From a virus: a stretch of 44,429 nt of DNA. Of the stretch, positions 3,028 through 20,740 are shown in pieces. Made by a program: the position numbers and the translations under genes. Under the pieces are notes generated by a model. That model was not told the DNA's origin, did not search any database, and saw only the letters and a program-made list of their open reading frames with translations. Within the stretch, counting starts at the first letter, position 1. Every line of letters starts with the position of its first letter. The stretch spans positions 1 through 44,429 of IMG/VR virus record IMGVR_UViG_3300032193_000200; one strand, given 5' to 3'.

Positions 3028-3228
3028 TTATTCTGCTGCTGCTTCTTCTGGTGTCTGTGGAAGATCAGAAGGGGGTTGATCTTCTAGGAGACCCAAGGTC
3101 TCAAGACCACCAGTCAGCTTCAGTTTGTATTCTTTTGCTTTGACTAGGTTTTCTTCTAGTTCTGCAATTTGCTTTTCTGTAGAAGCAATTTGCTCTTCAA
3201 AATTCTTCTTAAGTTGTGCAGGATCCAT
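3028..3228 (-). CDS. Small coiled-coil protein, unknown function (66 aa)
   Basis: Residues about 5-40 (KKNFEEQIASTEKQIAELEE and on) have a heptad-like pattern of hydrophobic residues among Glu, Lys and Gln and are predicted to form a coiled coil. The C-terminal 20 residues are acidic and proline-rich and probably unstructured. Similar short proteins are common in the structural region of T4-like cyanophages, but I cannot name a function. A late-promoter-like AATAAATA lies 30 bases upstream, and an intrinsic terminator follows the stop, so the gene may form its own short late unit as well as being read from the adhesin cassette. No clear ribosome binding site precedes the ATG. It sits where T4 has wac (fibritin, also a coiled coil), but it is far too short to be fibritin. 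That resemblance is positional only. Confidence 0.75.
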   Translation of the reverse strand: MDPAQLKKNFEEQIASTEKQIAELEENLVKAKEYKLKLTGGLETLGLLEDQPPSDLPQTPEEAAAE

Positions 3229-3268: not shown

Positions 3269-3634
3269 TCACAAAGTAGTGTCAATATCCAAATCTGGTT
3301 CGGGTTCCTTGTCATGAAGTTTGATAATTTGATCTACCATGTATGCAAGTTGACCATCAACGGATAGTCTCAGTTGCTTCACTCTTCTCGTGAACTCATC
3401 CAATTCAATATCTCCTGCCTTTAACTCAATTGCAAGATCATAAGCTGCCTTAGCAACAGTTTGTGCTTCTACAGTACCAGAAGTTCTCAGTGGTTTAATG
3501 TAGTGGATGTAACTACTCCACCCACTTCTCTCACCGAGTCTGCGATTTCTGATGAGTTCTTTTTCCTCATCAGTTACACTTAAAGCTCCTCTTCTCTCTA
3601 AAAGGAATAAGTATTCTTCAGGAGTCATCTTCAT
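3269..3634 (-). CDS. Adhesin partner protein 2 (possible fibre chaperone), 121 aa
   Basis: The start ATG overlaps the stop of the adhesin gene upstream as ATGA, so translation is probably coupled. A GGAGAT ribosome site lies 9 bases before the ATG, inside the last codons of the adhesin. The N-terminal 38 residues (MTPEEYLFLLERRG, then VTDEEKELIRNRR) are charged, helical and resemble the start of the partner protein encoded at 4568-4939. The second halves differ. A short acidic tail, PEPDLDIDTTL, ends the protein. No enzyme motif is visible. Position straight after a fibre-tip gene is typical of fibre assembly chaperones or tip proteins such as T4 gp38 or Tfa, but sequence does not show homology to either, so the role is an inference. 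Confidence 0.82.
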   Translation of the reverse strand: MKMTPEEYLFLLERRGALSVTDEEKELIRNRRLGERSGWSSYIHYIKPLRTSGTVEAQTVAKAAYDLAIELKAGDIELDEFTRRVKQLRLSVDGQLAYMVDQIIKLHDKEPEPDLDIDTTL

Positions 3635-4566
3635 TGTACCCAGATCTCCGCTCTCATAGTTCTATTTACACCAGTAGTGCCTTGACAGCAGTAGATATGA
3701 TCTCCTGCTGATGCACCAGAACGCTGGACACCAATACCACCAGAAACATCATTAGATCCTTGGTTACCTTCGTTGTTCCAACCAAATCCCCAACGGACTC
3801 GGTTGCTACCATTTCCTCTGTAGTTAAATCCATACCACTGGAAACCATTTTGGTTGGAGAATCTGGAACCTTGCCACATGCTCTGACCACGAGGGTTGCT
3901 AGACAATTGTTGCTGACTTTGCAATCTGGAAAGGCATGTAGATCCTGTACCCTGTCTCCATGTCCATCCAGTGTATGGAACAGAAGACTGACCACCATTA
4001 CTACCCAAGTCTGGGAACACAGCGCACATTGTGGATGCGTTGTAGTAGTTGAAAACGTGGTTCTTATGGTCACCATCGTTTCTATTCAACTGAGTGGTGG
4101 CATTATAAGTATTTGACTGAGACCAGTAAGAGTTATTGTAGTTGAAAGTATTTCCTCTAGTACACTTCCAAGCAAGCATCCAACCACCGCCACCTAGGTG
4201 ATTGCTTCCCATAGCGCAATAAACCTGAGTAGCACCAACAGTGGGAAGAGAAATCCAGTAAACACCATCAGTTGCTGCTGGGTTTACTGCAAGAATTGCT
4301 GCTGCAGATGGTGCTGCTTTTTCAGCAGATGATCCATCGATCTTAGATCCACCAAAACCAGACCACTCATTTCCATCATAAACTTCTGCAGACTCCTCTT
4401 CGGTATTAAATCCAATCATACCGATCTGAGGACTGCTAGGTCTAGTAGAGTTGGTCCATCTTCTGATTCTAAGATTTCCAGTGACATCGCATGTGCCATT
4501 AGAATCAACGGATAACGAGTTGTTACCCTGTAGAGATGAAACCCTGGTTACGTTAATCTGTGACAT
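3631..4566 (-). CDS. Fibrinogen/intelectin-like tail adhesin, copy 2 (311 aa)
   Basis: Residues 1-35 are beta-rich. Residues 47-73 form a fibre box (GMIGFNTEEESAEVYDGNEW) common in phage tail fibres. From residue 84 on, the sequence follows the start of fibrinogen-related and intelectin domains: DGVYWISLPTVGATQVYCAM (100-119), then GGGGWMLAWKCTRG. Later landmarks shared with the neighbouring copy are WYGFNYRGNG (244-253), RWGFGWN, GSNDVSGGIG and a CysCys pair at 293-294. It has seven cysteines against three in copy 1. I infer a receptor-binding tip that recognises a surface sugar. The gene begins one base after the stop of the 142-codon-frame partner gene and ends in an ATGA overlap with the next partner gene. 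The intelectin link is from motif reading only and is moderately sure. Confidence 0.85.
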   Translation of the reverse strand: MSQINVTRVSSLQGNNSLSVDSNGTCDVTGNLRIRRWTNSTRPSSPQIGMIGFNTEEESAEVYDGNEWSGFGGSKIDGSSAEKAAPSAAAILAVNPAATDGVYWISLPTVGATQVYCAMGSNHLGGGGWMLAWKCTRGNTFNYNNSYWSQSNTYNATTQLNRNDGDHKNHVFNYYNASTMCAVFPDLGSNGGQSSVPYTGWTWRQGTGSTCLSRLQSQQQLSSNPRGQSMWQGSRFSNQNGFQWYGFNYRGNGSNRVRWGFGWNNEGNQGSNDVSGGIGVQRSGASAGDHIYCCQGTTGVNRTMRAEIWVQ

Positions 4567-4567
4567 G

Positions 4568-4939
4568 TCAATTAGGGTATACTTCTGCGATTGCGAGAAT
4601 CATGTGGTTGAGAGCTTCTGCTTGGATTCTCTCTGGTGTATCTTGATTGTAATTAGCCAAGAAACCAGGGGAGTTTGCAAAAGATCCCTTATCATACTTA
4701 CCGAGTTTTAAATCATTTACTCTGTCTAGCAAATCATTTGCAGACTTCGCAATGTAAGCGTTTGCCGCTTCCTTTTTGATTTTCTCGATATTCTCTACAT
4801 ATTTATCTGTATGTTTCTTGCTCATCTCTTTACGACTTCTGAGCATCTCATACTCGTCCTCAGTAATGTCTAAGTAATACCTAGACTTTCTGAGTTCAAT
4901 AATATGTTTGTATTCTTCTTCTGTTAATTCTACGTTCAT
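4568..4939 (-). CDS. Adhesin partner protein 1 (possible fibre chaperone), about 123 aa
   Basis: I place the start at the ATG of 4939-4937, giving MNVELTEEEYKHIIELRKSR. This makes an ATGA overlap with the adhesin stop and puts GGAG about 11 bases upstream, exactly as in the downstream partner gene. A longer frame from 4996 is open but would overlap the adhesin by about 60 bases and has no support. The N-terminus holds two similar short helical units (LTEEEYKHIIELRKS and ITEDEYEMLRSRKE) followed by a lysine-rich helix. The rest, including ANSPGFLANYNQDTPERIQA, has no motif I recognise. It is a likely remote paralogue of the partner protein at 3269-3634. A chaperone or tip-binding role is inferred from position. 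Confidence 0.82.
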   Translation of the reverse strand: MNVELTEEEYKHIIELRKSRYYLDITEDEYEMLRSRKEMSKKHTDKYVENIEKIKKEAANAYIAKSANDLLDRVNDLKLGKYDKGSFANSPGFLANYNQDTPERIQAEALNHMILAIAEVYPN

Positions 4940-5907
4940 CTTACGTAAATCTCCACGCGAGCGTTTCTTCTCATGCCAGTACGGTTTTGGCAACAACCAA
5001 CAGCATCACCAGCAGACCATCTAGATCCACCACGATACTTCATACCAATACCACCACCGACATCATCACTACCCATGTTGCCATTAGGATAGAGACCGCC
5101 GCCATTTTCATTCCAACCAAATCCCCAGCGAGATCTTGTGTCTGTACCGTTAGACCTGTAGTTAAATCCATAGAATCTAACGTCATTCTGAGTGCTCCAA
5201 GGATTACCCCAACCACTAAAGTTCAGAGCGTCTCTGATGAAGTATCTATCAACAGTGCTAAACAAACTCCTTAGTGTAATTCTATTTCCACCATAGAAAT
5301 TATTTTCCAACCATGTCCAGTTTCCTAGGCCACCAATACTTCCACCAGATCCAATGTCAGGCCAGCGTGCAAAAATATCTTTTGCATTGAAGTTGTTAAA
5401 TGATGCAAACTTTGCGTCTCCATCATTTTGGTTATTAGCACTAGTATTCAAGGTGTTTCCATTTGTCCAGTAACCAGAGTCATACTGGAAAGTACCGCCT
5501 CTAGTTGCTTTCATTGCCATCTGCCAACCACCTTGGTCATATGCACTATTCATGATGCAATACAGTTGGGTTGGACCAGCACTTGGAAGATCGATCCAAT
5601 AAACACCATCACCTGCGGATGGGTTTGCTAACTTAATATCGTTAGCGGATGGTGCTGCTTTGTCAGCAGACGATCCATCAGGAGCAGATGATCCACCTGC
5701 TTCTACCCACTCAGTTCCATTGTAAAATTCTAGAACTTCATTCTCTGTATTATAACCAAAAGATCCTGTTAAATTAGCGGGACGACCTGCTGTCGTCCAG
5801 GTAGGAACTTTAAATCCACCATTAATTTGAAGGGTTTGGTTTGCGGGAACAATGACGGTGTTGTTTGCCGCCAGTCCTCTTAGTTCTCCAACACTTAAAC
5901 TACTCAT
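4936..5907 (-). CDS. Fibrinogen/intelectin-like tail adhesin, copy 1 (323 aa)
   Basis: The N-terminal 35 residues contain VIVPANQTLQINGGFKV, a short beta cap like the ends of other cyanophage fibre proteins. Residues 48-72 hold the fibre box GSFGYNTENEVLEFYNGTEW. Residues 99-136 read GDGVYWIDLPSAGPTQLYC followed by GGWQMAMKATRG, the opening pattern of fibrinogen-related and intelectin domains. NDGDAKFASFNNF (161-173) and the final strand RRNARVEIYVR also recall intelectins. Cysteines are at 117, 305 and 306. The ATG overlaps the stop of the 3041-residue protein by one base (TAATG), with GGAG about 9 bases upstream, and a perfect TATAAATA lies 50 bases before it. I infer a host-receptor adhesin mounted on a larger fibre. 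Intelectin homology is suggested, not proved. Confidence 0.87.
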   Translation of the reverse strand: MSSLSVGELRGLAANNTVIVPANQTLQINGGFKVPTWTTAGRPANLTGSFGYNTENEVLEFYNGTEWVEAGGSSAPDGSSADKAAPSANDIKLANPSAGDGVYWIDLPSAGPTQLYCIMNSAYDQGGWQMAMKATRGGTFQYDSGYWTNGNTLNTSANNQNDGDAKFASFNNFNAKDIFARWPDIGSGGSIGGLGNWTWLENNFYGGNRITLRSLFSTVDRYFIRDALNFSGWGNPWSTQNDVRFYGFNYRSNGTDTRSRWGFGWNENGGGLYPNGNMGSDDVGGGIGMKYRGGSRWSAGDAVGCCQNRTGMRRNARVEIYVR

Positions 5908-8900
5908 TAAATTACGCTCCAGTTAGATCCGTTAGAAATAGTGACTGTATATCCATTATTTATAGTCACAGGACCAGCACTCATACAAGATTTGCTTGCT
6001 GGAATTGTGATGTTTTCCGCAATTGCTTGACGGTTTGCCTTAATGATACCGTAAGTATCTAGGTACATAACGTCTTGATTAACTCTTAGTGTACCATCAA
6101 CGTTAACGTCACTGCCAACATCTAGATCATAACGTGGGTTACCACTTCTGTTAATACCAACTCTGGAGAGTCTGTAAATATCAGAACCATTAGGTGCTTC
6201 TGTCCATCTGGAAGTAACGAATGGTTGGTTGTTCTGGTAAACAAGACCATTGACGTTGAAGTTACCTTGGACGTTTAGACCGTAACTAACAGTAGATCCA
6301 GTAGCGGTGCTGCTGGTATTGGTGGTTCCAATCGAAACTCTATTAGTGCCACCATTAATTGCAATCGCAGGAGTAGAGTTCCAAGATGTTCCACCATTGT
6401 TGGTAGATGCTTGGATAGTAAAGATGTTGTTACCAACCAGCTGGTTACCAATTCTGAAGTTTCTGTAGGAAGAAGAACCACGGAATACTAGTGGAGCACC
6501 AGAGTTATCGTTGTCAGTATCAATAGTGATCTGATTTTGTACAATCAGTGTGTCATCAATGTATGCTGTACCATCAACGTGTAAGTTGTAAGATGGATCT
6601 GTTACACCAATACCGAGAGATCCTCCTGCAGTACCAACCAAAGACATAATGTGGTTGTTTGGTGCATCGCCAGCACCTTGTCCAGGTTGCCATGTGTAGA
6701 AGTCAATAGCATTTCCGTTGCCAGATCCACCACTATTGTGGCGAGTCTTAATTGCGTGCTTGTAGTTCTGAGATGCGTTATATCCCATGAAGACCTGGGA
6801 TGTACTAAACACATTGGAGTTGTTACCAGATCCAAGATGTAGTGCTGCTTTTCCTGCCTGACCATTTCCAAATCCATCGATTTGGAGTTTGACATTAGCA
6901 TTGGTTCCGCCAGTGCCACCAGAAATTCTAACGTTATTGTTAGAAGCATCTACGAATAGAGTTCCGCTGTCAACCGTGAAGTCACTGGCAACAGTAGCAG
7001 TAGAAAGCATACTTGCTGTTCCACTTACGCTGAAGTTAGATCCACCACCAGTAATGGTTAGTGAACCTGTCATTACATCACCAGCCTTCAAGACGTTTAG
7101 TGATGCAGAACCAGTTAGGTTTGCTGTGATTGTTCCAGCAGAGAAGTTACCCGAAGAGTCACGAATAACAGCAGTGGAAACAATGTTTGGAGAGTTGAAT
7201 GTAACGTTTCCAGTGTTCCAGATCTTGTTACCATTGATCGTAAATCCATCAGCGTTGGCAACCTGAGCATTCAGGGTTCCAGAACCATCAGTAGAATTAC
7301 CACCAGTTACGACAAGAGCAACGTTATAGTTAGCTGCTAACTGAGAAGAGTTGAAGTAGATACCAGGAGAAGAAGAGTTACCATCTTTTCTACCCAGTCT
7401 GAGGTTACCAGTTCCACTATCACTTTCAAGTGTTGCTACTTGGAATGTGTTGTCATCTTCGATTGCGAAGTCGTGGAATGTAACTCTTACACTTGCAGTA
7501 CCAATTTGCAGAGCACCAACGAAGTTACCTGCAGTTAGTCTACCAAAGATTAGTGTGTAATCTTCTGTTGGGTCAGAGACGTTATTGGTAACGATGTTGT
7601 CAATCGAGATAACACCAGTTGCCTGAGCGTTTGCGTCATACAGGTTGACAGTTTGACCAGGGAGGAATGGAGTTCCACCTAGGACCTGACCAGAAACATA
7701 GATCTTGTACTTAGAATCGCCAGAGAAGGACTTGATTGTGATGGAATCACGGATAACACCTGCACTCTGGAAACTTGGCATTCTGTTATCAGATAGTGTG
7801 CCATAGTTGATATTAAGAGCATTCTGATACCAAGTGCCTTGTCTGTTATCAAGTCTGTCTGCGTCTAGGTCAGAATCAATACCATCGTTATTAGATGTCC
7901 AGACTTTACCCCATGTACCGAAAGTAGTGACTCCAGTTCCAGAACCACGGAGATACATGTTATCGTTATCGGTGAATGCAAGTTGTCTTACACCACCAAT
8001 TGCGGTTAGACCGCTACCATCTGCTCTGAGAGTAAGAACCATGTTTTTGGTTCCACCATCATTCAGTTGGTTTGCACTGTTGTTAATGGTGTTGGAAACA
8101 ATACCAGTAACGAAGTTGTTTGGAGTTGGGTTAGAAGTTGGGTTGTTAGTACCAGTGATAAGTCTAATCGTTCTAACTGACTGACCAGAAATATCAATGT
8201 TGTACGTACCAGCGAGTCTATCCGTAGGAACTCTACCAGTCTGTAGGTTATCTGCGTTGGTATAGAAACTAGAGTCTGCACCGTCTAGGAAGTCAGCATC
8301 AAGACCAGATCCAGAACCAGTCTTCAGTTCGATAGAACCGTTACCTGCTGTGCCGATGTTAAACTGAGATTTCTTGAATCTAGAAACACCTAGTGTGCCA
8401 TACAGGTCAGCAGAAACTGTTAGGTCAGTAACTCTTTGTACGTCAAGGGCAACGTTTGCATACTGTCTAAGAACGGTAGATAGTTTTGCTTTTCCTAAGA
8501 AGCTAGAACCAGAACCAATCTCAACTGGAGCAGAAGAAATGTCAAAGTCAGCAGCGTAACCACTGCCACCATCTGTAACGACTACAGATGTAACAGCACC
8601 ACCAGAAACAATGACGTTGCACTTAAGTCCACTGCCAGGAGCACCACCAGTAATAGTTAAGTCGAAGTATTGACCATCGGTATAACCACTACCACCGTTA
8701 GCGATGATGACGCTATCTACGAAATTGCCTTGAGTATCTGTAGAGTCAAACGTGATTGGAGAAGAACCACGCTCGAATTCAATGATTGTTCCTAGAGGAA
8801 TCGTAGCAGTTAGTGGGTTGTTCAGAGAAATTGTTGTCTGTCCGCCAACCGTAATAACACCAGTAATGTTAGTGTTTTGTTGAATACCACTTACAGTGTT

Positions 8901-11900
8901 TTTAACTGCATGACCAATCAGAACGTTTGCGTTCGTTGCCATTACAAGTTGACTGGAACCAGAGTTTGCCTGAGCAGTCAACTTATCAAAGTATCTGATT
9001 TCAGCACCCTTGAGTGACTGTACTGCCTTAGCGTATGTCTGATCACCACGTAGGAATGTGAACGAGTTAGCAGCACCTGCATTAGCAAGTCTATCTGTCT
9101 CAATAACACCAGATGTAATATCGGATGCTGCAATCTGGTTGGAGGATAGCGATACCCAGTTATTATTATCACCAGAAGATGTATTGACAACTCTGCTGAG
9201 GTTTACGGTTACTGCTGGTGTATCACTGGAGTCAATGTTATCAGTATCCTGAATAGCAATGTTGTTAACAATGTCACCATATAGTCTGCTTTCGATTAAA
9301 GCATTACCTTGTGCTTGTGTTCCTTGTCCAGGAGGTGCAGAGAAGGTAACAGTTGGAGCGGAGGTGTAACCTTTACCACCTTTAAATCCATTGAATGTTA
9401 CAATCTCTACAGCAACAACTTCTCCATTTGCAATGGTACAGGTTGCGGCAGCTGAAACAGCACCTAGTCCTTGTCCACCACCAGAGAATGTGATTGTTGG
9501 TGGTTGGGTGTAACCAGAACCACCGTTGGAGATTGTCAACTGATAAACAACACCAGTTCTATATTCAGTTGCCTGAACACGACCACCAGATACACTACCA
9601 GTGAAGATGTCGCCAATGGTAAACTGAATTGTAGGATCGACAGCGAATGCTAAGAACTGACTGTCTAGATCATTGTTAAGAATGAAGGACTGTGATGTAT
9701 CCTGTTGGATCGCGATGTCACCAGCAAGTGCGCCTTCAATAGCAAGTCTTTCTGCTTGGTTTGCAACAGTGTAAACTTCAAATGGTCTTAGTGCTGGGAT
9801 CTGGTCAATAGAAATCTTACCAGAGTCAGTCAATTCAACCAGTGCTCTAGGAACAGCGTTCGTAGAATATGGTTTGTTGATGAAAGGACCAAGGTTGTTA
9901 GTAATATAATCCTTGACTGCCTTTTGAGTAGGTAGTACAGAGTCACTTGTGGTAGCACCACCAAGTGTGTTATCTGCGGAGAATCCAGTAACAACAACGT
10001 CGCCACCTTTCAGTTTCAAGAACTCAACTTCAGAGATGGTAACCGTACCCGTGAAGGTGATAGCACCAGTTCTGTTCTCAATTCTAGCGAATGTACCAAC
10101 CTTGAAGTCACCAAGTTCGTCAGTACCAGAGACGTATACACGACCGTAGTCTTCGGAAACTTGTTCAAATGCTTCGATCTTAGTACCACCGTTTTCAGGT
10201 AGTGCAAGATAGTTAGTACCAGAACCTGCAAATTCCCAGGTGTGGGAAGAAGAGTTAACGATAGAAGGTCTATGTAGTCTGATGGTAGCACCAGTGATAG
10301 ATCCAATGGCAATTGGTTGACCAGTGGTTTTATCTTTGAGTGACATGCCACTGCCAACACCATCATCAATGGTTAGATCTGCACTGTTATCAGCAGCAAC
10401 AGGTCCAACAGCATCAATAAAGTATTCAATATCTGGATTGACATTTTCGTATCCATCAATCTTAACAATATAGTGCTCTAGTGGCGCTCTACCTAAACCA
10501 GAAATACTAATGATAGTTCTGCCTGTTGGTGTTGCAGAGATGTTACTTACAGTACCAACGTCGAACGTATATGCTTCTCTACGGAAACCATTACCTCTTA
10601 GTGCGTTTAGACCGAAGTTTGTAGCAGAGTTGGTGATAGATGCATAACCACCAGTCTCACAAAGGACACCATCTGCACAGAAAATAACAAAGACCGAAAC
10701 TAACTGGGTGTAACCATCTTCAATAACCTTATATCCTGTACCACCAAAGGAGACGATCGTGAATGCCGCAGCAACCATCGACTTACCCTGGTTGGGGAAG
10801 GTTGCAGTGCCGTCAAGTTCCAATCCAGGGAAAGGACAGTTGGGTTGCTTGACCTTAGAACCATCAATTAGAGCACCGCCACCACCTAGGAAAGAGATAA
10901 CAGAAGAGTTCTGTGTATATGGTGATGCCTCAACGATAGGCAAATCATCAAACGTACCTCTGATAGCAGATCTGACATTCTGTTGATCTTGAATAAAGCT
11001 ATCTGGATACGTGATAACTGGTGCAATATCATATAGAGTTCCAGTATTAATTGCAGTAGCTCCAGGTGCTGTACCATTTGCAGGATCAACAGCGTATTCT
11101 AAGATGCTATCATAAAGATCCATCAATGTAGTGATGGTAGATGCTACGTTAGAGCATGTTGGATTAGTTCCAGACTTAAGAATATTCCAATCTTCAAATT
11201 TAGGGATTGGAGAATTTAGTGCTGTAGGACCATAATTAATCAGAGTAGCATTTGCCTTTGCACTTACAAACGTATGTGCGACACCCGCAGCAGCACCTGC
11301 GTTTGGTACAGTACATGTTACTGTGGTTAATCCACCAGCACTTGATACGTTGGTAATTGCATAACTTTCACCATAGTTGGAATCAAACCTCAGAGGACTT
11401 GCGTGGTCTCCAGGTGTTCCGTTGTAGGTGCAGTTGAATACTAGTGCCTCTTCTGCAAAAGCGATTCTATCGCTGGTAGTTGGTGCTGTGGCTGGATCGG
11501 GGAATGTTACAGTTACTTGACCCGATGTGGAGTTATAAGTAGCACCCTGTGGTGTAAATGCAGCAACATTGCCATCAGACCAGTTACGCATTGCAGCGAT
11601 TGCTAGATCTTTAACTTGCTGGAAAGCAAATCTAGTAGCTGGTAGTTCTGATGCAGGGACACCAACCAATGCCAAACCATCGTAGTAAAGTTCAGCAGCA
11701 GTTACTGTTCCTTTATTTCCACCCAATACCAAGTCTCTACAGAGATTGCGTAGAGTTAGTACAATATCTCTACGACACTTGCGTTCTTGAACGTTGTTAA
11801 GTGATAGAGATGGATATTGAACAAGTGCTGCTCTGTATGCTTCATCAGCAATCAAGTCTTTGTTCTTCTGAATCAGATATGCAGCATCTAGATATGTGCC

Positions 11901-14900
11901 AGTTGCATTATTGCTAATTACATCTACCCAGAGATAAGATAGAGTATCGATAGCAGCTCTTACATCATCACAATACTTTCCACTACCATTTGCTGATCCA
12001 TCAGCATTCAGTAGCGCCGTAGAAGAGATAATCGTTGGATCGAAGTATCTTGGTAGAGAAGAATACTGAGGAGTGTATAGATCATCACTGAGAGTTCTGT
12101 TTCCAATCCTCCAGTTGCACATTGCGTAGATTGCTAGTTCTCTAGCAAATTCAAATCCACGAACGTTTTGCGTAATTTCATCTTCGATGAAACCAATTTG
12201 TGTTCCTACAATATACTTCTGTGCTGCTGTAAGAACGTTGAAGTTTGATCCAAACTCAAGGTCTCTTACGATAGCGTTGAGGAAGTGTACAACGTCTTGA
12301 CGGCACTGCTCGTCGTTACCAGGAATAGAGAAACTTGGATATGTTTTCTGACCATCAGAACAGGACAGAAGCATGTTCTCGATCTTGATAACATCATCTT
12401 CTGTTAGAGATGCAACTGGATTGTTGGTTGTAACTGTAGCAATACCTGTTCCAGCATTGTCCCATACAAATCCAGTAACATTGTACGTGTTACCACCAAA
12501 TGTTACTGTACCACCACTGACGTAAGTGTGAGTATCAAGAGTCGCATTAATTCCTAAGAAAATGTCGAAAGTATTACCACTGACGTTAAATGCAGCGTAA
12601 TGATACTTTGCATATTCAGAGTTAATAAACCCAACAACCTCATCAGCAATGAAGTCTCTGTTGTTTCTGATTAACTGGCAAGCATCCTGATATCTTCTTT
12701 CTACAGGAGTAGACAGTTTAAATTTGTTTGGTGAGTTGAGTAGAGATAAAGTAACAGATTTGGAGTAAGACTTTACCGTAGCATTTTGTCCTGGGTCAAA
12801 GTCTGATACAGAGAATCCGTTGACTTTCTTTGGAATTACAAATCTTCTAGCACGACCATCAGCATCTTCGATGACCTTATAGATTCTTTGCTTACCATTC
12901 AAGAAAGAAATGTCAGGACTGTTATTAGTAGGCAGACCTTCAATTAGAATCTCTTGACCTTCTTTCAATTCGTGGGTATTAGATCTACCAACTAGAGCAC
13001 TAGTATAGAAAACAATACCACCAAGGTCTTCTGAATTACCATATATGCCACTCTGGAAACCACCTTGAGAGACACTAGGATCGTTCTGTAGGGAGAAATC
13101 GATTCTAGAAATAGGTAGAGTTGTAGTTACATCTTCGTCATAAGATACAACCTCACCTTCAGCTCTAATCGATACAATGTCTGTAGAGTCAAATGTTTCT
13201 GTAGTTACAGTTGCATTGAACAAGTTGATCGTTCCATTTCCTGTAGCATCCCATGTTGGGGAGTCAAGGATAGGTACAACAGCAACATCCCAATAAGTTG
13301 GGGTATTCTCATCATCTGGTGTAATAGAAGCAACTTCGTAATAACCAGCAGTGAAGTAGGTATCTGTAGTATCGTCTAGATACAGATAAGTACCACCAGG
13401 GATGGTTGGTTCTGGATCTGTTCCAGTAAATCTCAGTTTGTTTTCTCCACCAACACCAGTACAAGTGAGGTTTGTAATTTGAGATCCAGTCGAACCAGAA
13501 AGAATATATCTAAATTGCTCACCAGCGATGAAGGAACCACTTGTTAGTCTTACATCAACATTACCATTGATGTATGCACTAGCACCTGTTGTTACATCAA
13601 AGTTAACTTCGATCAGTTTTGCTCTAGAACCAGTGTTAACACCAACTACTTCTAGACCAGTTACTAGTTGTTGTAAACCTGTATTTTGCTGGAAAGCAAC
13701 ACGGAATTCATCTGGACCAAAGATTTGGTGACCAATTGGATACTGTACACCAAAGTCACCATTGGTCTCATTATCGATCGTGATTCTTTGCTTGTCATCA
13801 AAGACCATAGCAAAGTCCCAAGTAGCAACTGGGTCACCGTTGGAGTCAATTTGGTCGCGATATGTAACACCAATAACGTAGTTCTTATCGCCAAACTTGA
13901 AAATGTGCTTGTTAGCATTTGCAGGTCTGATAATTACCAGACGTAGGTTGTCACCAACAACTGAACAGTCGGGTGGTAGAGAGATTGGGTTATCTTCTAC
14001 GTAGTCACCACCAGAGACAACCAGTGTTTCTTTAACACCAGGAGTTGCCCATGCTAGTTGTGCTGCTTTTTTAATTGTACGAACAGGGTTAACTGCCGAA
14101 CGACCGTCGTTCAGGTCAGAACCAATCTGTTCAGAAACGTAAATACGACCACCAACGTCATTCGTTGCTAGGTTGAGTACGTATTCTGTAGTAGCAATCT
14201 TGTCAGATCTATCGCCAAGTAGAGGTGTGATAGAACGTGGATAGACGCCAGCTTCTCCAGTCTCTTGGTATTTAAATGCATTTGGATCGTCTACACGGAA
14301 ACCAATATGCTTGAAGTTAACTTCACCGTTAGCAACAATACCATCAGTGTGTTCTGGTGCTAATGAACCAGTCTCACCAGCATTTAGTGCTTGATAAACA
14401 TTGTTACCAAAGTATCTGTAAGAGTTCTCCTGAATAATAACGTTGGGAGACCAGATAGTACCACTGCTGTTAACATAGGTCTTTAAGTTTGGACCTCTGA
14501 GTTCTAGGTCAGGGGTAACGAAGTTATCAATATCAAGGTTTAGAACTCTCGCCGTGTCTGAAATGATCGACGTTGACGTTCTAATAGCACCGTTGATATC
14601 AAGTTCAAAGTCAACAGTATCCAGTTCTGCTACAAGAGAAGCACCTTGTCCATTGCCACCAGTAACTGTGACTGTAGGAGCAGCGGTGTAACCAGATCCA
14701 GGATTGTTAACAGCAACGTTGATAACACGTCCGTTAAAGATAAACGCGGAAGCTTGTGCTTGTACACCACCAGGGGTAGTTGGCGGATCGATAGTGATAG
14801 TTGGAACTACGGTATATCCAGTACCACCAGAAACAACGTTAATGTTGTTTACTCGTTCTCCCGTTCTGTTAATACCAACACGAGGTAATCCAGTCGCAGC

Positions 14901-15032
14901 ATCAAGTTCGGTTCTGACGATCTCTCTTTCAAGAGCACCAGTACCTCCCCTAATGGTTAGTTCATTATCACCGATGAGTTGTGGTTTTGAACCTCTAATA
15001 AACTCTTTATCGGAATTAATGTTAAAACTCAT
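5907..15032 (-). CDS. Giant tail-fibre-like virion protein (3041 aa)
   Basis: ATG at 15032 with AGGAG 12 bases upstream; start MSFNINSDKEFIRGSKPQLI. Modules in order: two GSGY/PTVT beta repeats (about 60-137); a CBM5/12-like unit (about 193-240); a beta-helix-like stretch starting GGRIYVSEQIGSDLNDGRSA; two helical CRRD modules (about 779-975 and 1046-1150); more GSGY repeats (about 1830-1915 and 2105-2180); tail-fibre repeats such as LDGADSSFYTNADNLQTGRV; VGIGTT/NLHVDGTAYI-type beta repeats; and a terminal cap SAGPVTINNGYTVTI. No enzyme motif is seen. Such composition is typical of long tail fibres or outer baseplate proteins of cyanophages. It lies in the interval that holds short-tail-fibre genes 11 and 12 in T4, but I see no sequence match to them. 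It is a very large protein for a myovirus fibre. Confidence 0.88.
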   Translation of the reverse strand: MSFNINSDKEFIRGSKPQLIGDNELTIRGGTGALEREIVRTELDAATGLPRVGINRTGERVNNINVVSGGTGYTVVPTITIDPPTTPGGVQAQASAFIFNGRVINVAVNNPGSGYTAAPTVTVTGGNGQGASLVAELDTVDFELDINGAIRTSTSIISDTARVLNLDIDNFVTPDLELRGPNLKTYVNSSGTIWSPNVIIQENSYRYFGNNVYQALNAGETGSLAPEHTDGIVANGEVNFKHIGFRVDDPNAFKYQETGEAGVYPRSITPLLGDRSDKIATTEYVLNLATNDVGGRIYVSEQIGSDLNDGRSAVNPVRTIKKAAQLAWATPGVKETLVVSGGDYVEDNPISLPPDCSVVGDNLRLVIIRPANANKHIFKFGDKNYVIGVTYRDQIDSNGDPVATWDFAMVFDDKQRITIDNETNGDFGVQYPIGHQIFGPDEFRVAFQQNTGLQQLVTGLEVVGVNTGSRAKLIEVNFDVTTGASAYINGNVDVRLTSGSFIAGEQFRYILSGSTGSQITNLTCTGVGGENKLRFTGTDPEPTIPGGTYLYLDDTTDTYFTAGYYEVASITPDDENTPTYWDVAVVPILDSPTWDATGNGTINLFNATVTTETFDSTDIVSIRAEGEVVSYDEDVTTTLPISRIDFSLQNDPSVSQGGFQSGIYGNSEDLGGIVFYTSALVGRSNTHELKEGQEILIEGLPTNNSPDISFLNGKQRIYKVIEDADGRARRFVIPKKVNGFSVSDFDPGQNATVKSYSKSVTLSLLNSPNKFKLSTPVERRYQDACQLIRNNRDFIADEVVGFINSEYAKYHYAAFNVSGNTFDIFLGINATLDTHTYVSGGTVTFGGNTYNVTGFVWDNAGTGIATVTTNNPVASLTEDDVIKIENMLLSCSDGQKTYPSFSIPGNDEQCRQDVVHFLNAIVRDLEFGSNFNVLTAAQKYIVGTQIGFIEDEITQNVRGFEFARELAIYAMCNWRIGNRTLSDDLYTPQYSSLPRYFDPTIISSTALLNADGSANGSGKYCDDVRAAIDTLSYLWVDVISNNATGTYLDAAYLIQKNKDLIADEAYRAALVQYPSLSLNNVQERKCRRDIVLTLRNLCRDLVLGGNKGTVTAAELYYDGLALVGVPASELPATRFAFQQVKDLAIAAMRNWSDGNVAAFTPQGATYNSTSGQVTVTFPDPATAPTTSDRIAFAEEALVFNCTYNGTPGDHASPLRFDSNYGESYAITNVSSAGGLTTVTCTVPNAGAAAGVAHTFVSAKANATLINYGPTALNSPIPKFEDWNILKSGTNPTCSNVASTITTLMDLYDSILEYAVDPANGTAPGATAINTGTLYDIAPVITYPDSFIQDQQNVRSAIRGTFDDLPIVEASPYTQNSSVISFLGGGGALIDGSKVKQPNCPFPGLELDGTATFPNQGKSMVAAAFTIVSFGGTGYKVIEDGYTQLVSVFVIFCADGVLCETGGYASITNSATNFGLNALRGNGFRREAYTFDVGTVSNISATPTGRTIISISGLGRAPLEHYIVKIDGYENVNPDIEYFIDAVGPVAADNSADLTIDDGVGSGMSLKDKTTGQPIAIGSITGATIRLHRPSIVNSSSHTWEFAGSGTNYLALPENGGTKIEAFEQVSEDYGRVYVSGTDELGDFKVGTFARIENRTGAITFTGTVTISEVEFLKLKGGDVVVTGFSADNTLGGATTSDSVLPTQKAVKDYITNNLGPFINKPYSTNAVPRALVELTDSGKISIDQIPALRPFEVYTVANQAERLAIEGALAGDIAIQQDTSQSFILNNDLDSQFLAFAVDPTIQFTIGDIFTGSVSGGRVQATEYRTGVVYQLTISNGGSGYTQPPTITFSGGGQGLGAVSAAATCTIANGEVVAVEIVTFNGFKGGKGYTSAPTVTFSAPPGQGTQAQGNALIESRLYGDIVNNIAIQDTDNIDSSDTPAVTVNLSRVVNTSSGDNNNWVSLSSNQIAASDITSGVIETDRLANAGAANSFTFLRGDQTYAKAVQSLKGAEIRYFDKLTAQANSGSSQLVMATNANVLIGHAVKNTVSGIQQNTNITGVITVGGQTTISLNNPLTATIPLGTIIEFERGSSPITFDSTDTQGNFVDSVIIANGGSGYTDGQYFDLTITGGAPGSGLKCNVIVSGGAVTSVVVTDGGSGYAADFDISSAPVEIGSGSSFLGKAKLSTVLRQYANVALDVQRVTDLTVSADLYGTLGVSRFKKSQFNIGTAGNGSIELKTGSGSGLDADFLDGADSSFYTNADNLQTGRVPTDRLAGTYNIDISGQSVRTIRLITGTNNPTSNPTPNNFVTGIVSNTINNSANQLNDGGTKNMVLTLRADGSGLTAIGGVRQLAFTDNDNMYLRGSGTGVTTFGTWGKVWTSNNDGIDSDLDADRLDNRQGTWYQNALNINYGTLSDNRMPSFQSAGVIRDSITIKSFSGDSKYKIYVSGQVLGGTPFLPGQTVNLYDANAQATGVISIDNIVTNNVSDPTEDYTLIFGRLTAGNFVGALQIGTASVRVTFHDFAIEDDNTFQVATLESDSGTGNLRLGRKDGNSSSPGIYFNSSQLAANYNVALVVTGGNSTDGSGTLNAQVANADGFTINGNKIWNTGNVTFNSPNIVSTAVIRDSSGNFSAGTITANLTGSASLNVLKAGDVMTGSLTITGGGSNFSVSGTASMLSTATVASDFTVDSGTLFVDASNNNVRISGGTGGTNANVKLQIDGFGNGQAGKAALHLGSGNNSNVFSTSQVFMGYNASQNYKHAIKTRHNSGGSGNGNAIDFYTWQPGQGAGDAPNNHIMSLVGTAGGSLGIGVTDPSYNLHVDGTAYIDDTLIVQNQITIDTDNDNSGAPLVFRGSSSYRNFRIGNQLVGNNIFTIQASTNNGGTSWNSTPAIAINGGTNRVSIGTTNTSSTATGSTVSYGLNVQGNFNVNGLVYQNNQPFVTSRWTEAPNGSDIYRLSRVGINRSGNPRYDLDVGSDVNVDGTLRVNQDVMYLDTYGIIKANRQAIAENITIPASKSCMSAGPVTINNGYTVTISNGSNWSVI
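5957..5964 (-). promoter_or_regulatory. T4-type late promoter TATAAATA ahead of the adhesin cassette
   Basis: A perfect TATAAATA on the minus strand, inside the last codons of the 3041-residue gene (it encodes part of TINNG). It is 50 bases before the adhesin ATG at 5907. By T4 spacing, the transcript starts near 5951 and includes a GGAG ribosome site. Confidence 0.7.
8510..8720 (-). repeat. GSGY beta-repeat pair in the 3041-aa protein, third cluster
   Basis: Encodes IIANGGSGYTDGQYFDLTIT followed by a second unit with VVTDGGSGYAADFDI. Same Gly-Ser-Gly-Tyr turn and flanking strands as the copies in gp14 and near the N-terminus of this protein. Confidence 0.65.
9290..9550 (-). repeat. GSGY/PTVT beta-repeat pair in the 3041-aa protein, second cluster
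   Basis: Encodes ISNGGSGYTQPPTITFSGGG and then GGKGYTSAPTVTFSAPPGQG, separated by an Ala-rich strand. These are among the cleanest copies of the repeat in the window. Confidence 0.7.
11580..11895 (-). repeat. Helical CRRD-GGN-RNW module, copy 2 of the 3041-aa protein
   Basis: Residues about 1046-1150. Signature: DAAYLIQKNKDLIADEA, then YPSLSLNN, KCRRDIVLTLRNLCRDLVLG with GN, and LAIAAMRNW. It aligns by eye with the copy at 12100-12690 and with two copies in the gp7-like protein (34815-35135 and 35520-35860). Confidence 0.7.
12100..12690 (-). repeat. Helical CRRD-GGN-RNW module, copy 1 of the 3041-aa protein, split by a beta insertion
   Basis: Residues about 779-975. It starts DACQLIRNNRDFIADEVVGF and resumes at QCRQDVVHFLNAIVRDLEFG, ending LAIYAMCNW. 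Between the two halves lies a beta-rich insertion of roughly 80 residues (VSGGTVTFGGNTYNVTGFVW and neighbours) absent from the other copies. Confidence 0.65.
14315..14457 (-). repeat. CBM5/12-like unit in the 3041-aa protein
   Basis: Residues about 193-240: an initial Trp (IWSPN), an aromatic pair (SYRYFGNNVYQA), then GETGSLAPEHTDG. This pattern is typical of small carbohydrate-binding modules found in phage fibres. A similar unit is encoded at 16635-16812. Family assignment is by pattern only. Confidence 0.45.
14622..14852 (-). repeat. GSGY/PTVT beta-repeat pair near the N-terminus of the 3041-aa protein
   Basis: Encodes VVSGGTGYTVVPTITIDPP and then NNPGSGYTAAPTVTVTGGNG, about residues 62-137. 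Same repeat as in gp14. Confidence 0.7.
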
Positions 15033-15580: not shown

Positions 15581-18500
15581 TTACTTCTTAGTGATGGTGG
15601 AGGTTACAGTAATATTTACCGTTTCAGTTGCTGCAACGTTTGAACCGATTGCAAGATTGAGTCTTACTTCATTAGCACCAGTAACTTCAAATGTTGGAAC
15701 AATCAGTTGTGTGCCAGTTCTGATGTTGCCATATTCGGTGTGGAATACATCAGTGGTATTATCAGTAATGCCAAACTCAATAAACTCTTTGTCGCCAGTT
15801 GTAGTATTGTGAGCAACAATAACTGTCTTGGCTCCCATGGCAGTTGCTGTAGGATAAAGAACAGAGTTTGCATTATTTACAGTTCCTTGTGTCAAAGAAA
15901 CTTTATCAGTAAGAATCTTGATATCATTAAGTTCAAATTCCTGCAAGTCACCATCAAAGACTTTGACTTGATTGATAGTTCCAGTTCCAAAACCTGTATT
16001 GAGGTATACATCACCTTGGTTGTCAAGTCTCAAGACTGGTTCAACAAAAAGACCACTGGAAAGTCCAATGTCAAAGTATTGCTTGCTACCATGCAAGAAT
16101 GTTCTATCTACGGCGGTGTTGTCTAGCGTTGTTGCAGCACCATCAAATGTCATTAGAGATGCTGTAATTTCAAATTCATCTGAAGTGGATGAAACAATCG
16201 TATCTACTGTATCAAACTGCAACTCTGTAGTAGTCAGTCTTAGTGTATTGCTACCATCATTGTAGAAGTAGAGGACATTTTCATTTGCTCCAGGTGAAGT
16301 TTCTGGAATGATGTAAGTATTTTGGTCAACGTCCTTGACTCCACCAAGAGAACCCCAGTTCGCTCCATCATAACCTTCAAATTGTGTGGATGTTGTATTG
16401 AATCTGATGCTGCCTTGTGCTTGAACACCCCTTTCTCCATCAGTACCGACTGGAATTACAATTGATGATGCAGCGTCAATGGTTACTTTCTTACCAGGGT
16501 TTGGTCTAAAGACCAGATCACTAACATCTGTGCTGATAGTGTTATCTGCTAAACGCAATTCCGAGTTGATAACAACTGGACATGCAGCATCGGGTCCAAT
16601 TCTAACTTCTTCAATCTCTTCAAATGTTAGAGGTGCAACTGCTAACTGAGACCATGTAAGAATTGCAGTACCATTTAGTTGGGCACCTGTGGTGTGGATA
16701 GGTTCATTGCCACTAGTTCCAGTTGTACCAGCAGTTGTAACTTCATACAAGTTATTCAACCACTTGACATACTGACCAAGTGTTACTGGAGTATTCGCAG
16801 TCCAAACTTGATATGCAGGTGCATTAGTTGCTGGAGAGTGAATTTTCTTATTGGTTACAAACTCTAGTTTAGTTGGACCAAACTTGACAGTATTAATACC
16901 ATCATTGTAGAACCAAAGGGTGTTATCATTAGAACCAATTGTTTGTTCTGCAAGAATATAAGTGTTACCGTCTAGGTCTCTGACACCACCAAGAGAAGAC
17001 CATGCCTGAGATGTAGCACTGTATCCTTCATACTGATTCGTTTGTGTATTGAATCTGATAGATCCATTACCAACTGCTGCAGCTCCAGGTCTTTGTGATG
17101 TATCACCAGCGGGAATGTTGATTGCTGTAGTTGTGTCTACCTTGACAACTCTACCAGTAGCTGGTTCTAAAACTAGGTCAGAAGTTACAGAGCGAATCTC
17201 ATTGTTCTCTAAAACAAGTTCGCTATTAATATCAATTGTACTAGTAGTTACAATAGTACCACCGATCGTTAGGTTACCTGTAGATTCTGCAACAGCAAAT
17301 GCACTACCGATTGCAAAATCTGCAGATACGTTAACATTATCAGTGTTTAACGTAATAGTATTTGTTGTTGTATTGGTGAGGTTTGTTACCTCAATGTCTC
17401 CTCCAGCAATTGTTGGAGCAGTTAGAGTTCCAGTTATATTAGCAGCGTTAGATGTTAATTGCTGAGAAACTACTTCCGTCAAGGTAATAGTTCCAGTATC
17501 AACATCCTGTAAAATTGTATCAGATACTTGCGTTTGGGTTACAGTAACTTCAAATCCACTACCAAATACTTTGGGGTTATTTGGATCTGATGTTACAGTT
17601 GCTTCGTTACCAATATCACCACCAGACTCAGCATTTTCTGGATCGTTGATTGAGTTAAAGTAATATAGTGTTGTTGGAGTATTTGCAGTAACTGTAATCT
17701 CAACATCATTCTGATTACGAATCACACCATCAGTAAACTCAGCACCAGCAAATGTGAGGGTTACCAGACCAGAGACGAGTGGAGCATCCGACAGAGTAAT
17801 TGTTGTTGCATTATCAACAGATGCAACCGTTGTGTTAATAGCTAATTCTCCAGGACCAGTTCCAGTCTCTGTTACTGTCATTCCAGCAACGATACCAGTT
17901 GTCGAAGTTACAGTAATTTGTGTGGAAGTAGAATCAAGTGTCGTGGTGATGTTCTCTACTAAACTTGGTGCTTTAGATCCACCTGGGAATGCAGAGAAAG
18001 CGAATGTATGTACGTTGTTTGATGCATCCGATGTATCAATTTGATACTTGTTGCCAACATAGAACGTAAGGTTTGGATGCATCTGTGCTCCAGAACCATC
18101 ACCAGTATCAATAAAGAATTTGTTTCTAGTTGTTCCTGCTGTATTAATTGTATATTGAGTTGTTCCGTATGTAGCAGTGGTAGCACCAACAATAATGCTA
18201 TCAGCATCTTGGAAACCAGAAGCATATGTAATAATATTGCTAATGTTTCCGCCAGAAGTGTTGACTACATAAACTTCTGCATCTGTGCTTTGAGAAACAC
18301 TACTAATTGTAACAGTAACATCATCTGCTGGACTTGCACCACCAACTAAGTTTCCACCAATAGTACAAGTGTCTGTGTCTGCATAGAACAAACCACCAGT
18401 AAATGTAACTGTGCTAATGTCACCAGCTGGATCCCTAGCAATATCAATACTACCACCCTGTCCATTTCCAGATGTTGTGAATACTGTAATTCCAGAATAT

Positions 18501-20740
18501 GTTGCGTTTGCTTCTGCAAGAATAGTTGAACCAGCGCCACTTGCTGATTGTGGCGCACCATCTGCAACTTTGATAACATCACCAACACTGATTGCAGAAG
18601 AAGTGACCGTGCCACTAAATGTAATCAGTTGAGTTGGTTGTGTTGTGAGTGTGTATATAATTGGTTGAGTTAGGGAAGATGCGTCTACACTCAGACTATC
18701 ACCAATATTATATCCATTACCAGCATCGGACAATGTGAAATTGGTGTCATCAATAACACCCAAAGTATCAATTGTAAATGAGAATGGTGTTGTTCCTACT
18801 CCAAATGGAGGTGCGAAGTCTAGAACTGCAGCACCAGGAGTTGTTGGTGAAGTAGAAAGAACAATTTGATTTGGTGTGGTTGTCAGATCTACAGAAGAAA
18901 CTGTAGTGTCAGCAGCGAGAACACCACCACCACTTGTTTGGGTAACAGTGTAACCATTGAAGATACCAGAAGCATCGGCAACTTCAATAGTGGATAGTCC
19001 AAGAGGAGAAACAAAAGTTAGAGTTGCTGCACCACCAGTGGTTGCAGGACCAGACATGGTAATCTGGGTAGCATTATCAACTGATTGAACAGTTAGTGTT
19101 CCAGAACCAGCATCACCAGTGCTTCCAGCATCGGTGTAGATAAGCATTCCTGGGTTGATTCCTGCAGTGGTTGTCATTGCGACAACAGCAGAGGAACCAG
19201 TGAGAGTTGCAGCTGCACCAGTTACCTGTCCAGGTAGTGTGGTGGATACATTAGAAACTGCTACTGGTAAAGTTTGAACGTCACCTACTACGTGATCAGT
19301 TCCATATGATGTAATTGTAATTGCATCAATTTTACCAGGGTTACTGGTTACTGTATATGCAAAGTTAGATCCACCACCTCCACCTAGGTCAGAATCTGCA
19401 GCACTTAGAACGTCACCAGTTATGTAATTCTGTCCATTATCTGTAAATACGACGGCAGTAACTTCACCGTCATATACAGGACCAGATAGTGTAAATTCTA
19501 TTCCAGTACCAGCGCCACCCAAGAAGTTATTTGGGAAAGTTACAACATCACCTGCTTGGTATCCAATACCACCAGAAGCAGTGACAATGTTGGTAGCAGA
19601 TCCACTAGTGATTGTAATATCATAAGAAGTGCCATAACCATAAGATCCAGCAGTACCAGATACAACATTCATTGTACCGCCCATGCCAGTATGGACAGAA
19701 CAGTTATATTGCAGAACAGTGCCAGCAGTTGCAGCAGGAAGAACGATTATATCAGTAAATGCTCCAGCACTACCAGGAGTGCCGTTAGAAAGCATGATAT
19801 ATTCTGCGGGTAGGAAACTACCTGCATTATCGTTGAACATCAAAGGATGTCCAGTATTAGATGCATCAGATTGATCAAATCTGTAGGTATTGCCAATAGT
19901 CAAGCTAAGTGTAGCTTGAGTTTGTCCATCAATCTGGTAAAGATTATCTGGTGGTGGAGTACCAGGATTTGTTACTGTAGTAACAGCAAATGTTTGTGTT
20001 GGTGTGTTGAATGCTTGTACGAATGTGTATACACCATCGGTGTATCCAGAACCAGCGTTGGAGATAGTACCAGGATACTGGGTGTTACCAGTAATAGTAA
20101 TTGTTGCTTCCGCACCAGTTCCTGTACCACCCGTCATAGGAACAGCTGTATATGTTCCAGGAACATATGCGGAACCTTCTGTAATGTCTCCTACAATGCC
20201 ATCTACATCGAAGTCAGCAAACATTCCTAGTGTAGGAGATCCACTAGAAACAAATGGTTGTGCTGCATAACTACCAGCAGTGTAGTTAGCACCTGTATTG
20301 GTAATTGTACCCTTAAATTCTAGTACAGTAATATCTGCGGTTGCACCTTCACCAGATCCACCAGTAAGAATTACGCTACTATAACTTCCACTGTCATAGT
20401 TTTGACCCTGGTTTACAATTGTCAGACCAGACTGGACAAGAATTTTCTTTCTTACTTTGATGTCTCTATAACTAATTACCTCTAGAGGCGCATAGTCAAA
20501 TAGGTTCTTACCAGCAGAAACGATGCCTAAAGTTCCTGTGTCTGCTTTGAAGATGCCTAAAGTTGAATCACTAGTAAACGCCAAAGATGGCGCAACTCTA
20601 GTTCCATCTCCAATTTTTAATTCGCCAGTGGCGAGGTTACTACCACCAGATGTGACGTTGAAAATCTGGGCACCGATGTCATTGATTTTTACCCTTTGCT
20701 GTTCAAAGGTATCAGTGCGTGCTACATTAATTGCTGGCAT
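15581..20740 (-). CDS. Large virion protein with cupredoxin-like domain and fibre modules (1719 aa)
   Basis: Start MPAINVARTDTFEQQRVKIN, the usual opening of a cyanophage structural family. Modules: GSGY-type beta repeats (about 100-250); a cupredoxin-like domain (about 268-361) with His298, Cys347, His350 and Met353; beta repeats ending near VDNATQITMS (about 510-577, 578-643); an EANATY module (about 735-815); a second, degenerate cupredoxin-like unit (about 891-925 and 999-1043) split by another VDNATTIT repeat; then two fibre boxes (GSIRFNTQTNQYEGYSATSQ and GSIRFNTTSTQFEGYDGANW) with a CBM5/12-like unit between (about 1310-1367). The C-terminus VTSTITKK is basic. The ATG overlaps the end of the small upstream gene by 14 bases. 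A late-promoter-like CATAAATA lies 54 bases upstream. I infer an outer baseplate or fibre component. Confidence 0.87.
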   Translation of the reverse strand: MPAINVARTDTFEQQRVKINDIGAQIFNVTSGGSNLATGELKIGDGTRVAPSLAFTSDSTLGIFKADTGTLGIVSAGKNLFDYAPLEVISYRDIKVRKKILVQSGLTIVNQGQNYDSGSYSSVILTGGSGEGATADITVLEFKGTITNTGANYTAGSYAAQPFVSSGSPTLGMFADFDVDGIVGDITEGSAYVPGTYTAVPMTGGTGTGAEATITITGNTQYPGTISNAGSGYTDGVYTFVQAFNTPTQTFAVTTVTNPGTPPPDNLYQIDGQTQATLSLTIGNTYRFDQSDASNTGHPLMFNDNAGSFLPAEYIMLSNGTPGSAGAFTDIIVLPAATAGTVLQYNCSVHTGMGGTMNVVSGTAGSYGYGTSYDITITSGSATNIVTASGGIGYQAGDVVTFPNNFLGGAGTGIEFTLSGPVYDGEVTAVVFTDNGQNYITGDVLSAADSDLGGGGGSNFAYTVTSNPGKIDAITITSYGTDHVVGDVQTLPVAVSNVSTTLPGQVTGAAATLTGSSAVVAMTTTAGINPGMLIYTDAGSTGDAGSGTLTVQSVDNATQITMSGPATTGGAATLTFVSPLGLSTIEVADASGIFNGYTVTQTSGGGVLAADTTVSSVDLTTTPNQIVLSTSPTTPGAAVLDFAPPFGVGTTPFSFTIDTLGVIDDTNFTLSDAGNGYNIGDSLSVDASSLTQPIIYTLTTQPTQLITFSGTVTSSAISVGDVIKVADGAPQSASGAGSTILAEANATYSGITVFTTSGNGQGGSIDIARDPAGDISTVTFTGGLFYADTDTCTIGGNLVGGASPADDVTVTISSVSQSTDAEVYVVNTSGGNISNIITYASGFQDADSIIVGATTATYGTTQYTINTAGTTRNKFFIDTGDGSGAQMHPNLTFYVGNKYQIDTSDASNNVHTFAFSAFPGGSKAPSLVENITTTLDSTSTQITVTSTTGIVAGMTVTETGTGPGELAINTTVASVDNATTITLSDAPLVSGLVTLTFAGAEFTDGVIRNQNDVEITVTANTPTTLYYFNSINDPENAESGGDIGNEATVTSDPNNPKVFGSGFEVTVTQTQVSDTILQDVDTGTITLTEVVSQQLTSNAANITGTLTAPTIAGGDIEVTNLTNTTTNTITLNTDNVNVSADFAIGSAFAVAESTGNLTIGGTIVTTSTIDINSELVLENNEIRSVTSDLVLEPATGRVVKVDTTTAINIPAGDTSQRPGAAAVGNGSIRFNTQTNQYEGYSATSQAWSSLGGVRDLDGNTYILAEQTIGSNDNTLWFYNDGINTVKFGPTKLEFVTNKKIHSPATNAPAYQVWTANTPVTLGQYVKWLNNLYEVTTAGTTGTSGNEPIHTTGAQLNGTAILTWSQLAVAPLTFEEIEEVRIGPDAACPVVINSELRLADNTISTDVSDLVFRPNPGKKVTIDAASSIVIPVGTDGERGVQAQGSIRFNTTSTQFEGYDGANWGSLGGVKDVDQNTYIIPETSPGANENVLYFYNDGSNTLRLTTTELQFDTVDTIVSSTSDEFEITASLMTFDGAATTLDNTAVDRTFLHGSKQYFDIGLSSGLFVEPVLRLDNQGDVYLNTGFGTGTINQVKVFDGDLQEFELNDIKILTDKVSLTQGTVNNANSVLYPTATAMGAKTVIVAHNTTTGDKEFIEFGITDNTTDVFHTEYGNIRTGTQLIVPTFEVTGANEVRLNLAIGSNVAATETVNITVTSTITKK
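16635..16812 (-). repeat. CBM5/12-like unit in the 1719-aa protein
   Basis: Residues about 1310-1367: AYQVWTANTPVTLGQYVKW, then LNNLYEVTTAGTTGTSG and a closing TAILTW. The spacing of aromatic residues fits small carbohydrate-binding modules common in phage fibre proteins. Pattern-based only. Confidence 0.45.
18290..18540 (-). repeat. EANATY module shared with the DUF4815-type protein
   Basis: Encodes ILAEANATYSGITVFTTSGN, an IARDPAGDISTVTFTGG strand pair, and ADDVTVTISSV. The segment at 27320-27565 in another gene has the same order: LAGEANATYTGVTGNSSANG, VARNSSGVISNVTVTAGG, TDDITITVATI. Confidence 0.7.
19660..19940 (-). other. Cupredoxin-like domain region of the 1719-aa protein
   Basis: Encodes about residues 268-361. 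GNTYRFDQSDASNTGHPLMF carries His298 and LQYNCSVHTGMGGTM carries Cys347, His350 and Met353. A His, then Cys-x2-His-x2-Met, is the ligand layout expected of a mononuclear copper site in a plastocyanin-like fold, although the Met spacing is shorter than in plastocyanin. Whether copper is bound cannot be told from sequence. Confidence 0.6.

Follow-up and report, generated by a model that had tools for sequence, protein, structure and literature searches.

Cyanophages are the major viruses of ocean picocyanobacteria, and to our knowledge their receptor-binding proteins are mostly still to be identified. Intelectins are animal lectins for microbial sugars, with a calcium-dependent glycan site made up of Glu/His ligands and an aromatic box, and FReDs bind proteins too. 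Intelectins have been proposed to descend from a phage FReD protein; according to the same study, phages lack the intelectin domain, and only FReD has been reported in them (PMC9682848). Fibrinogen-like proteins were listed among host-recognition genes in a metavirome study (PMC3909814), and fibrinogen-like names already stand on some other cyanophage proteins in UniProt. The gene arrangement that we describe here resembles that of the T-even gp38 tip adhesins, with a separate adhesin gene behind the long fibre gene; the heads in our locus, however, do not belong to the glycine-rich (Gly_rich_2) family of gp38, and their fold differs. It also resembles that of the Tfa-type chaperones, such as Mu Tfa and Pam3 gp25, in having a small gene behind the fibre or adhesin gene and a helical region, which for the Tfa type has been proposed as the driver of assembly (PMC9608196). 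The Pam3 chaperone is an example of how a small protein encoded by a phage can drive fibre assembly (PMC9608196).

The window analyzed here is a 44.4-kb viral record (44,429 nucleotides), a T4-like cyanophage fragment close to Synechococcus phage ACG-2014h, with 89% identity to that phage across its first 20 kb. The reading that we favor, with moderate confidence, is that it comes from a cyanomyovirus with two exchangeable cassettes for host recognition, each composed of an adhesin with an intelectin-like head and a dedicated helical chaperone or clamp. Literature searches within an open-access library found no publication that describes these adhesins or their partners.

Layout of the locus

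On the minus strand the genes run in the order 3041-aa tail fibre, adhesin A, partner A, adhesin B, partner B, a 66-aa gene, gp13, gp14 and gp15. The giant tail-fibre gene (5907..15032, minus strand) matches phrog_5342, tail fiber protein, with 4823 bits and is annotated as tail fiber protein in NC_023587. Downstream of it lie the two adhesin-partner cassettes, both on the minus strand: cassette A encodes an adhesin of 323 aa (4936-5907) and a partner of 123 aa (4568..4939), and cassette B encodes an adhesin of 311 aa (3631-4566) and a partner of 121 aa (3269..3634). The placement of these four genes in a first-pass annotation of the window was confirmed. Partner A is counted from a conserved ATG; the longest open reading frame begins at a TTG at 4996. 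The tail-fibre TAA and the adhesin A ATG share one nucleotide (TAATG), a single base separates partner A from adhesin B, and in both cassettes adhesin and partner share 4 nt, ATGA, which hold the stop codon of the one and the start codon of the other. An overlap of exactly 4 nt recurs in 33 of the 35 adhesin-partner pairs that we collected. As the partner gene begins inside the adhesin stop codon, adhesin and partner are probably translationally coupled.

ACG-2014h carries the same four genes, each annotated merely as a hypothetical protein. In comparison with that phage all four are under purifying selection (dN/dS, 0.10 to 0.17), which indicates that adhesins and partners are real genes; positive selection was sought on the heads in the same comparison, and none was seen (dN/dS, about 0.1). 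The 66-aa gene (3028..3228, minus strand; phrog_580, E = 3e-20) lies outside the cassettes, at the edge of the variable island that precedes gp13; in S-H9-1 and ACG-2014h its position is taken by a comparably sized gene. Elsewhere in the window, the head-closure protein gp14 (1053-2177) contains a GSGY-type repeat insertion at about residues 189 to 282, and such repeats are also present in the giant tail fibre (5907-15032).

Adhesins and their intelectin-like heads

Adhesins A and B align end to end with 44% identity (E = 1e-74), and the motifs said to be common to both are present in each and recur in the aligned relatives. Over their full length both also match PHROG 1325 (E = 3e-86 and 7e-74), a family without an assigned function to which the present analysis adds a fold and a partner. 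Residues 1 to 75 of each adhesin form an N-terminal module (adhesin A, 5683..5907, N-module profile E = 3e-38; adhesin B, 4342..4566, E = 1e-40; minus strand; both sequences are in the seed of the profile). The head follows, at residues 76 to 323 of adhesin A (4939..5682, minus strand; A1 profile, 1.5e-95) and residues 76 to 311 of adhesin B (3634..4341, minus strand).

The proposal of the first-pass annotation that these heads contain a fibrinogen/intelectin-like domain is supported by a family model, by a profile search against the PDB and by structure prediction. The NCBIfam model NF040941 (GGGWT_bact), which describes a fibrinogen-like YCDxxxxGGGW domain, is matched above its curated cutoff of 30 bits by adhesin A (40.5 bits, E = 2e-10), adhesin B (38.8 bits, E = 7e-10) and the adhesin of P-TIM40; the model spans 46 residues only and names no function. 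A Pfam search of the adhesins returned no fibrinogen model, only a sub-threshold match to COLFI. A profile was needed for the PDB search, since single adhesin sequences gave chance matches only. With the A2 profile, built from an alignment of 77 relatives, the best matches were intelectins, namely lamprey serum lectin, human intelectin-1 and the Xenopus lectin (E = 3e-5 to 6e-4), followed by tenascins and ficolin at E values of at least 0.004. When two bacterial relatives were used as single queries, one matched intelectins solely around the GGGW motif, and the second gave chance matches only.

The AlphaFold model of adhesin B is confident (mean pLDDT, 91.8). The Foldseek check that had been recommended returned intelectins as the six best PDB matches; these were the six with E values below 1e-3 (2e-5 to 8e-5, over 304 to 323 columns), and the best ficolins reached 4e-3 over about 110 columns. 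The TM-scores to intelectins are modest (0.34 to 0.43), though the alignment spans the whole head. Intelectins, the X-type lectins (human intelectin-1, 4wmq; XEEL, 4wmo; lamprey serum lectin, 7e1e), are therefore the best profile and structural match to the phage heads. The FReD-type N-terminal part of intelectins, with its YCxM...GGGW motif, is present in the phage heads; in the profile search against the PDB, significant sequence similarity to intelectins ends after about 55 residues of the head, with none in the second half. Vertebrate intelectins have eight conserved cysteines (PMC9682848), a pattern that the phage family does not show: three cysteines are conserved family-wide, and the first FReD cysteine is missing. 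In contrast to intelectins, the phage head keeps one FReD-motif cysteine together with a C-terminal CC pair, at a TM-score of about 0.4, and the phage protein adds the N-terminal module and a following partner gene. Profile and predicted structure together support the heads as intelectin-like, within the fibrinogen-like superfamily and closest to intelectins; on the same evidence, their identity as true intelectins is not established.

A more far-reaching view would be that the phage heads have the full intelectin fold, that animal intelectins share descent with or derive from receptor-binding heads of prokaryotes or phages, and that the partner represents a novel type of intermolecular chaperone specialized for this fold. 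We regard this as doubtful; if true, the intelectin domain exists in bacteriophages. Because the phage heads show a longer structural match, the statement that phages lack this domain (PMC9682848) is worth testing again, and the proposed phage-FReD origin of the animal proteins can now be weighed against relatives from phages and bacteria whose match to intelectins is longer.

We suggest that the C-terminal head probably binds a cyanobacterial surface glycan. It may instead be a structural cap or a binder of a protein receptor that shares just the ancient FReD scaffold, and it speaks for such a protein that only the beginning of the head shows significant sequence similarity to lectins. We consider a head without sugar binding rather unlikely, as the nearest folds are the sugar-binding intelectins and then the ficolins, and a LamG/concanavalin-like head is among the others carried on the same N-terminal module. 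The present analysis gives a named head family with a testable class of ligand, plus a partner gene for co-expression.

The numbers of cysteines had been read as a sign that the two adhesins differ in specificity. Adhesin A has three (C117, C305 and C306), and adhesin B has seven (positions 26, 117, 135, 181, 211, 293 and 294). Conservation across the family is limited to C117 and the CC pair; the four additional cysteines of adhesin B fall outside this set, and hence the counts are not evidence of two specificities.

The partner proteins

The two partners are charged proteins of a family without a database name. The likeness claimed for their N-termini holds as a weak pairwise match (27% over 71 residues of the N-terminal half, E = 4e-4), and iterated profiles seeded with partner A or partner B converge, placing both in one family. 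The AlphaFold model of partner A is all-helical (pLDDT, 83.6). Searches by fold, by profile against the PDB and by family gave no credible match for the partners, and either partner used as the sole query against viral contigs found near-identical copies only. Searches of Pfam, PHROG and NCBIfam gave no match of the Tfa type; the N-terminal beta-sandwich of Pam3 gp25 has no counterpart in the all-helical model. As there is no fold or family match, the chaperone role that we propose for the partner rests on genomics.

The genomic evidence comes from copy number, co-divergence and domain association. Of nine complete phage genomes, all except P-TIM40 have as many partners as full heads (2/2 in one, 1/1 in three and neither in four), and in none of the nine was a partner copy found apart from a head. 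Distances on the adhesin and partner trees are correlated (Spearman, 0.74, and 0.45 on 21 non-redundant pairs; 0 of 5,000 permutations in each case); co-divergence of this kind is expected too from plain co-inheritance of neighbours. An N-terminal hairpin is present in the partner in all 26 pairs in which the adhesin has the N-terminal module and absent in all 9 pairs in which it does not; the long partners (101 to 157 aa) have the hairpin, and the short ones (71 to 96 aa) lack it. On the adhesin tree, three changes in the hairpin coincide in position with three changes in the module, a number too small for significance. Taken at the genomic level, these observations show a partner dedicated to this type of adhesin, and the suggestion of the first-pass annotation that it assists assembly is compatible with them. 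It is very unlikely that the small gene has nothing to do with the adhesin and is, for example, a regulator, an anti-defence gene or an antitoxin-like gene that merely shares the operon: a helical, charged and unnamed product would suit such a gene, whereas the copy-number match, the co-divergence, the association of hairpin and module and the absence of the partner elsewhere in complete genomes argue against it.

We think that the partner is most likely an assembly chaperone or clamp. Its core may contact the head and its N-terminal helical hairpin may handle the N-terminal module, a division of labor suggested by the co-occurrence of hairpin and module. It is also conceivable, if unlikely in our estimate, that the partner is a stoichiometric subunit of the virion, for instance a clamp retained at the junction of adhesin and fibre, as TfaMu-type proteins can be. 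The overlap, co-divergence, hairpin association and copy number would agree equally well with such a subunit, and the Tfa chaperones of Ur-lambda and Mu have been found in mature phages (PMC9608196). An assembly role for the partner remains our preferred interpretation.

A head need not always have a partner, as the heads of P-TIM40 and of one group of loci (L069-L076) have none adjoining. The intelectin-like adhesin of P-TIM40 is followed by a gene whose product has a glycine-rich (Gly_rich_2-type) domain. In one contig fragment (L078), a partner-like core domain is fused behind a phrog_20715 domain, distant from the head.

Distribution and origin of the cassettes

The head is present in many phage contigs and in genomes of Bacteroidetes, Actinobacteria, Verrucomicrobia and others; at the bacterial loci, it was not followed by a partner-family gene. 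Bacteroidetes genomes (L153-L171) have this head too, in some cases on a number of adjacent proteins with a secreted look, and these may be cell-surface lectins. One 188-kb contig of a bacterial assembly labelled Nonlabens xiamenensis (L169, NZ_RMVE01000006.1) encodes a P-TIM40-type adhesin together with its 269-aa neighbour and seems to be a cyanophage genome deposited with a bacterium.

The N-terminal module is combined with a variety of heads. Its 75-residue profile matched 123 distinct open reading frames in the collected loci. The intelectin-like head is complete in 41 of these, partial in two and absent from 80 (82 of 123 without a full head), counts that show variety and not frequency, because some of the loci were collected for matching the module. 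Other heads on the module include LamG/concanavalin-like and glycine-rich proteins. Three tandem adhesins with the module and with differing heads are encoded at L078:3956-8434, and an internal match to the module lies at residues 1200 to 1254 of a 1719-aa protein in the window (15581-20740). Gene content between the fibre gene and gp13 differs among S-H9-1, S-RSM4, Sf-CH1b and ACG-2014e, and in S-CAM4 the genes after the fibre differ again. It is the position beside the tail-fibre gene, this changing content of the island, and the use of one module for many heads that suggest an adhesin role. The module, a beta domain of about 75 aa, probably docks the adhesin onto the tail-fibre apparatus, and since it carries many other heads, each cassette appears to be an exchangeable fibre tip that brings along a putative chaperone for assembly.

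The first-pass annotation explained the two cassettes by duplication and divergence. Tandem order and 44% identity are what a recent in-place duplication with diverged specificity would leave, and yet the trees make it extremely unlikely. Adhesin A clusters with S-H9-1 and S-H9-2 and adhesin B with P-HM2 and others, in different deep clades separated by a fully supported branch, and the partners likewise fall in separate clades. Trees in which adhesins A and B were forced together were rejected by the AU test under the model used (p-AU = 1.7e-5; with S-H9-1, 1.3e-5), as were trees in which the partners were forced together with S-H9-1 (P = 0.002). Furthermore, S-H9-1 carries cassette A alone. 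These relationships indicate that one cassette was probably acquired, acquisition being likelier than duplication in place. Two specificities for the two cassettes are plausible, and carrying both may widen the receptor range of the phage.
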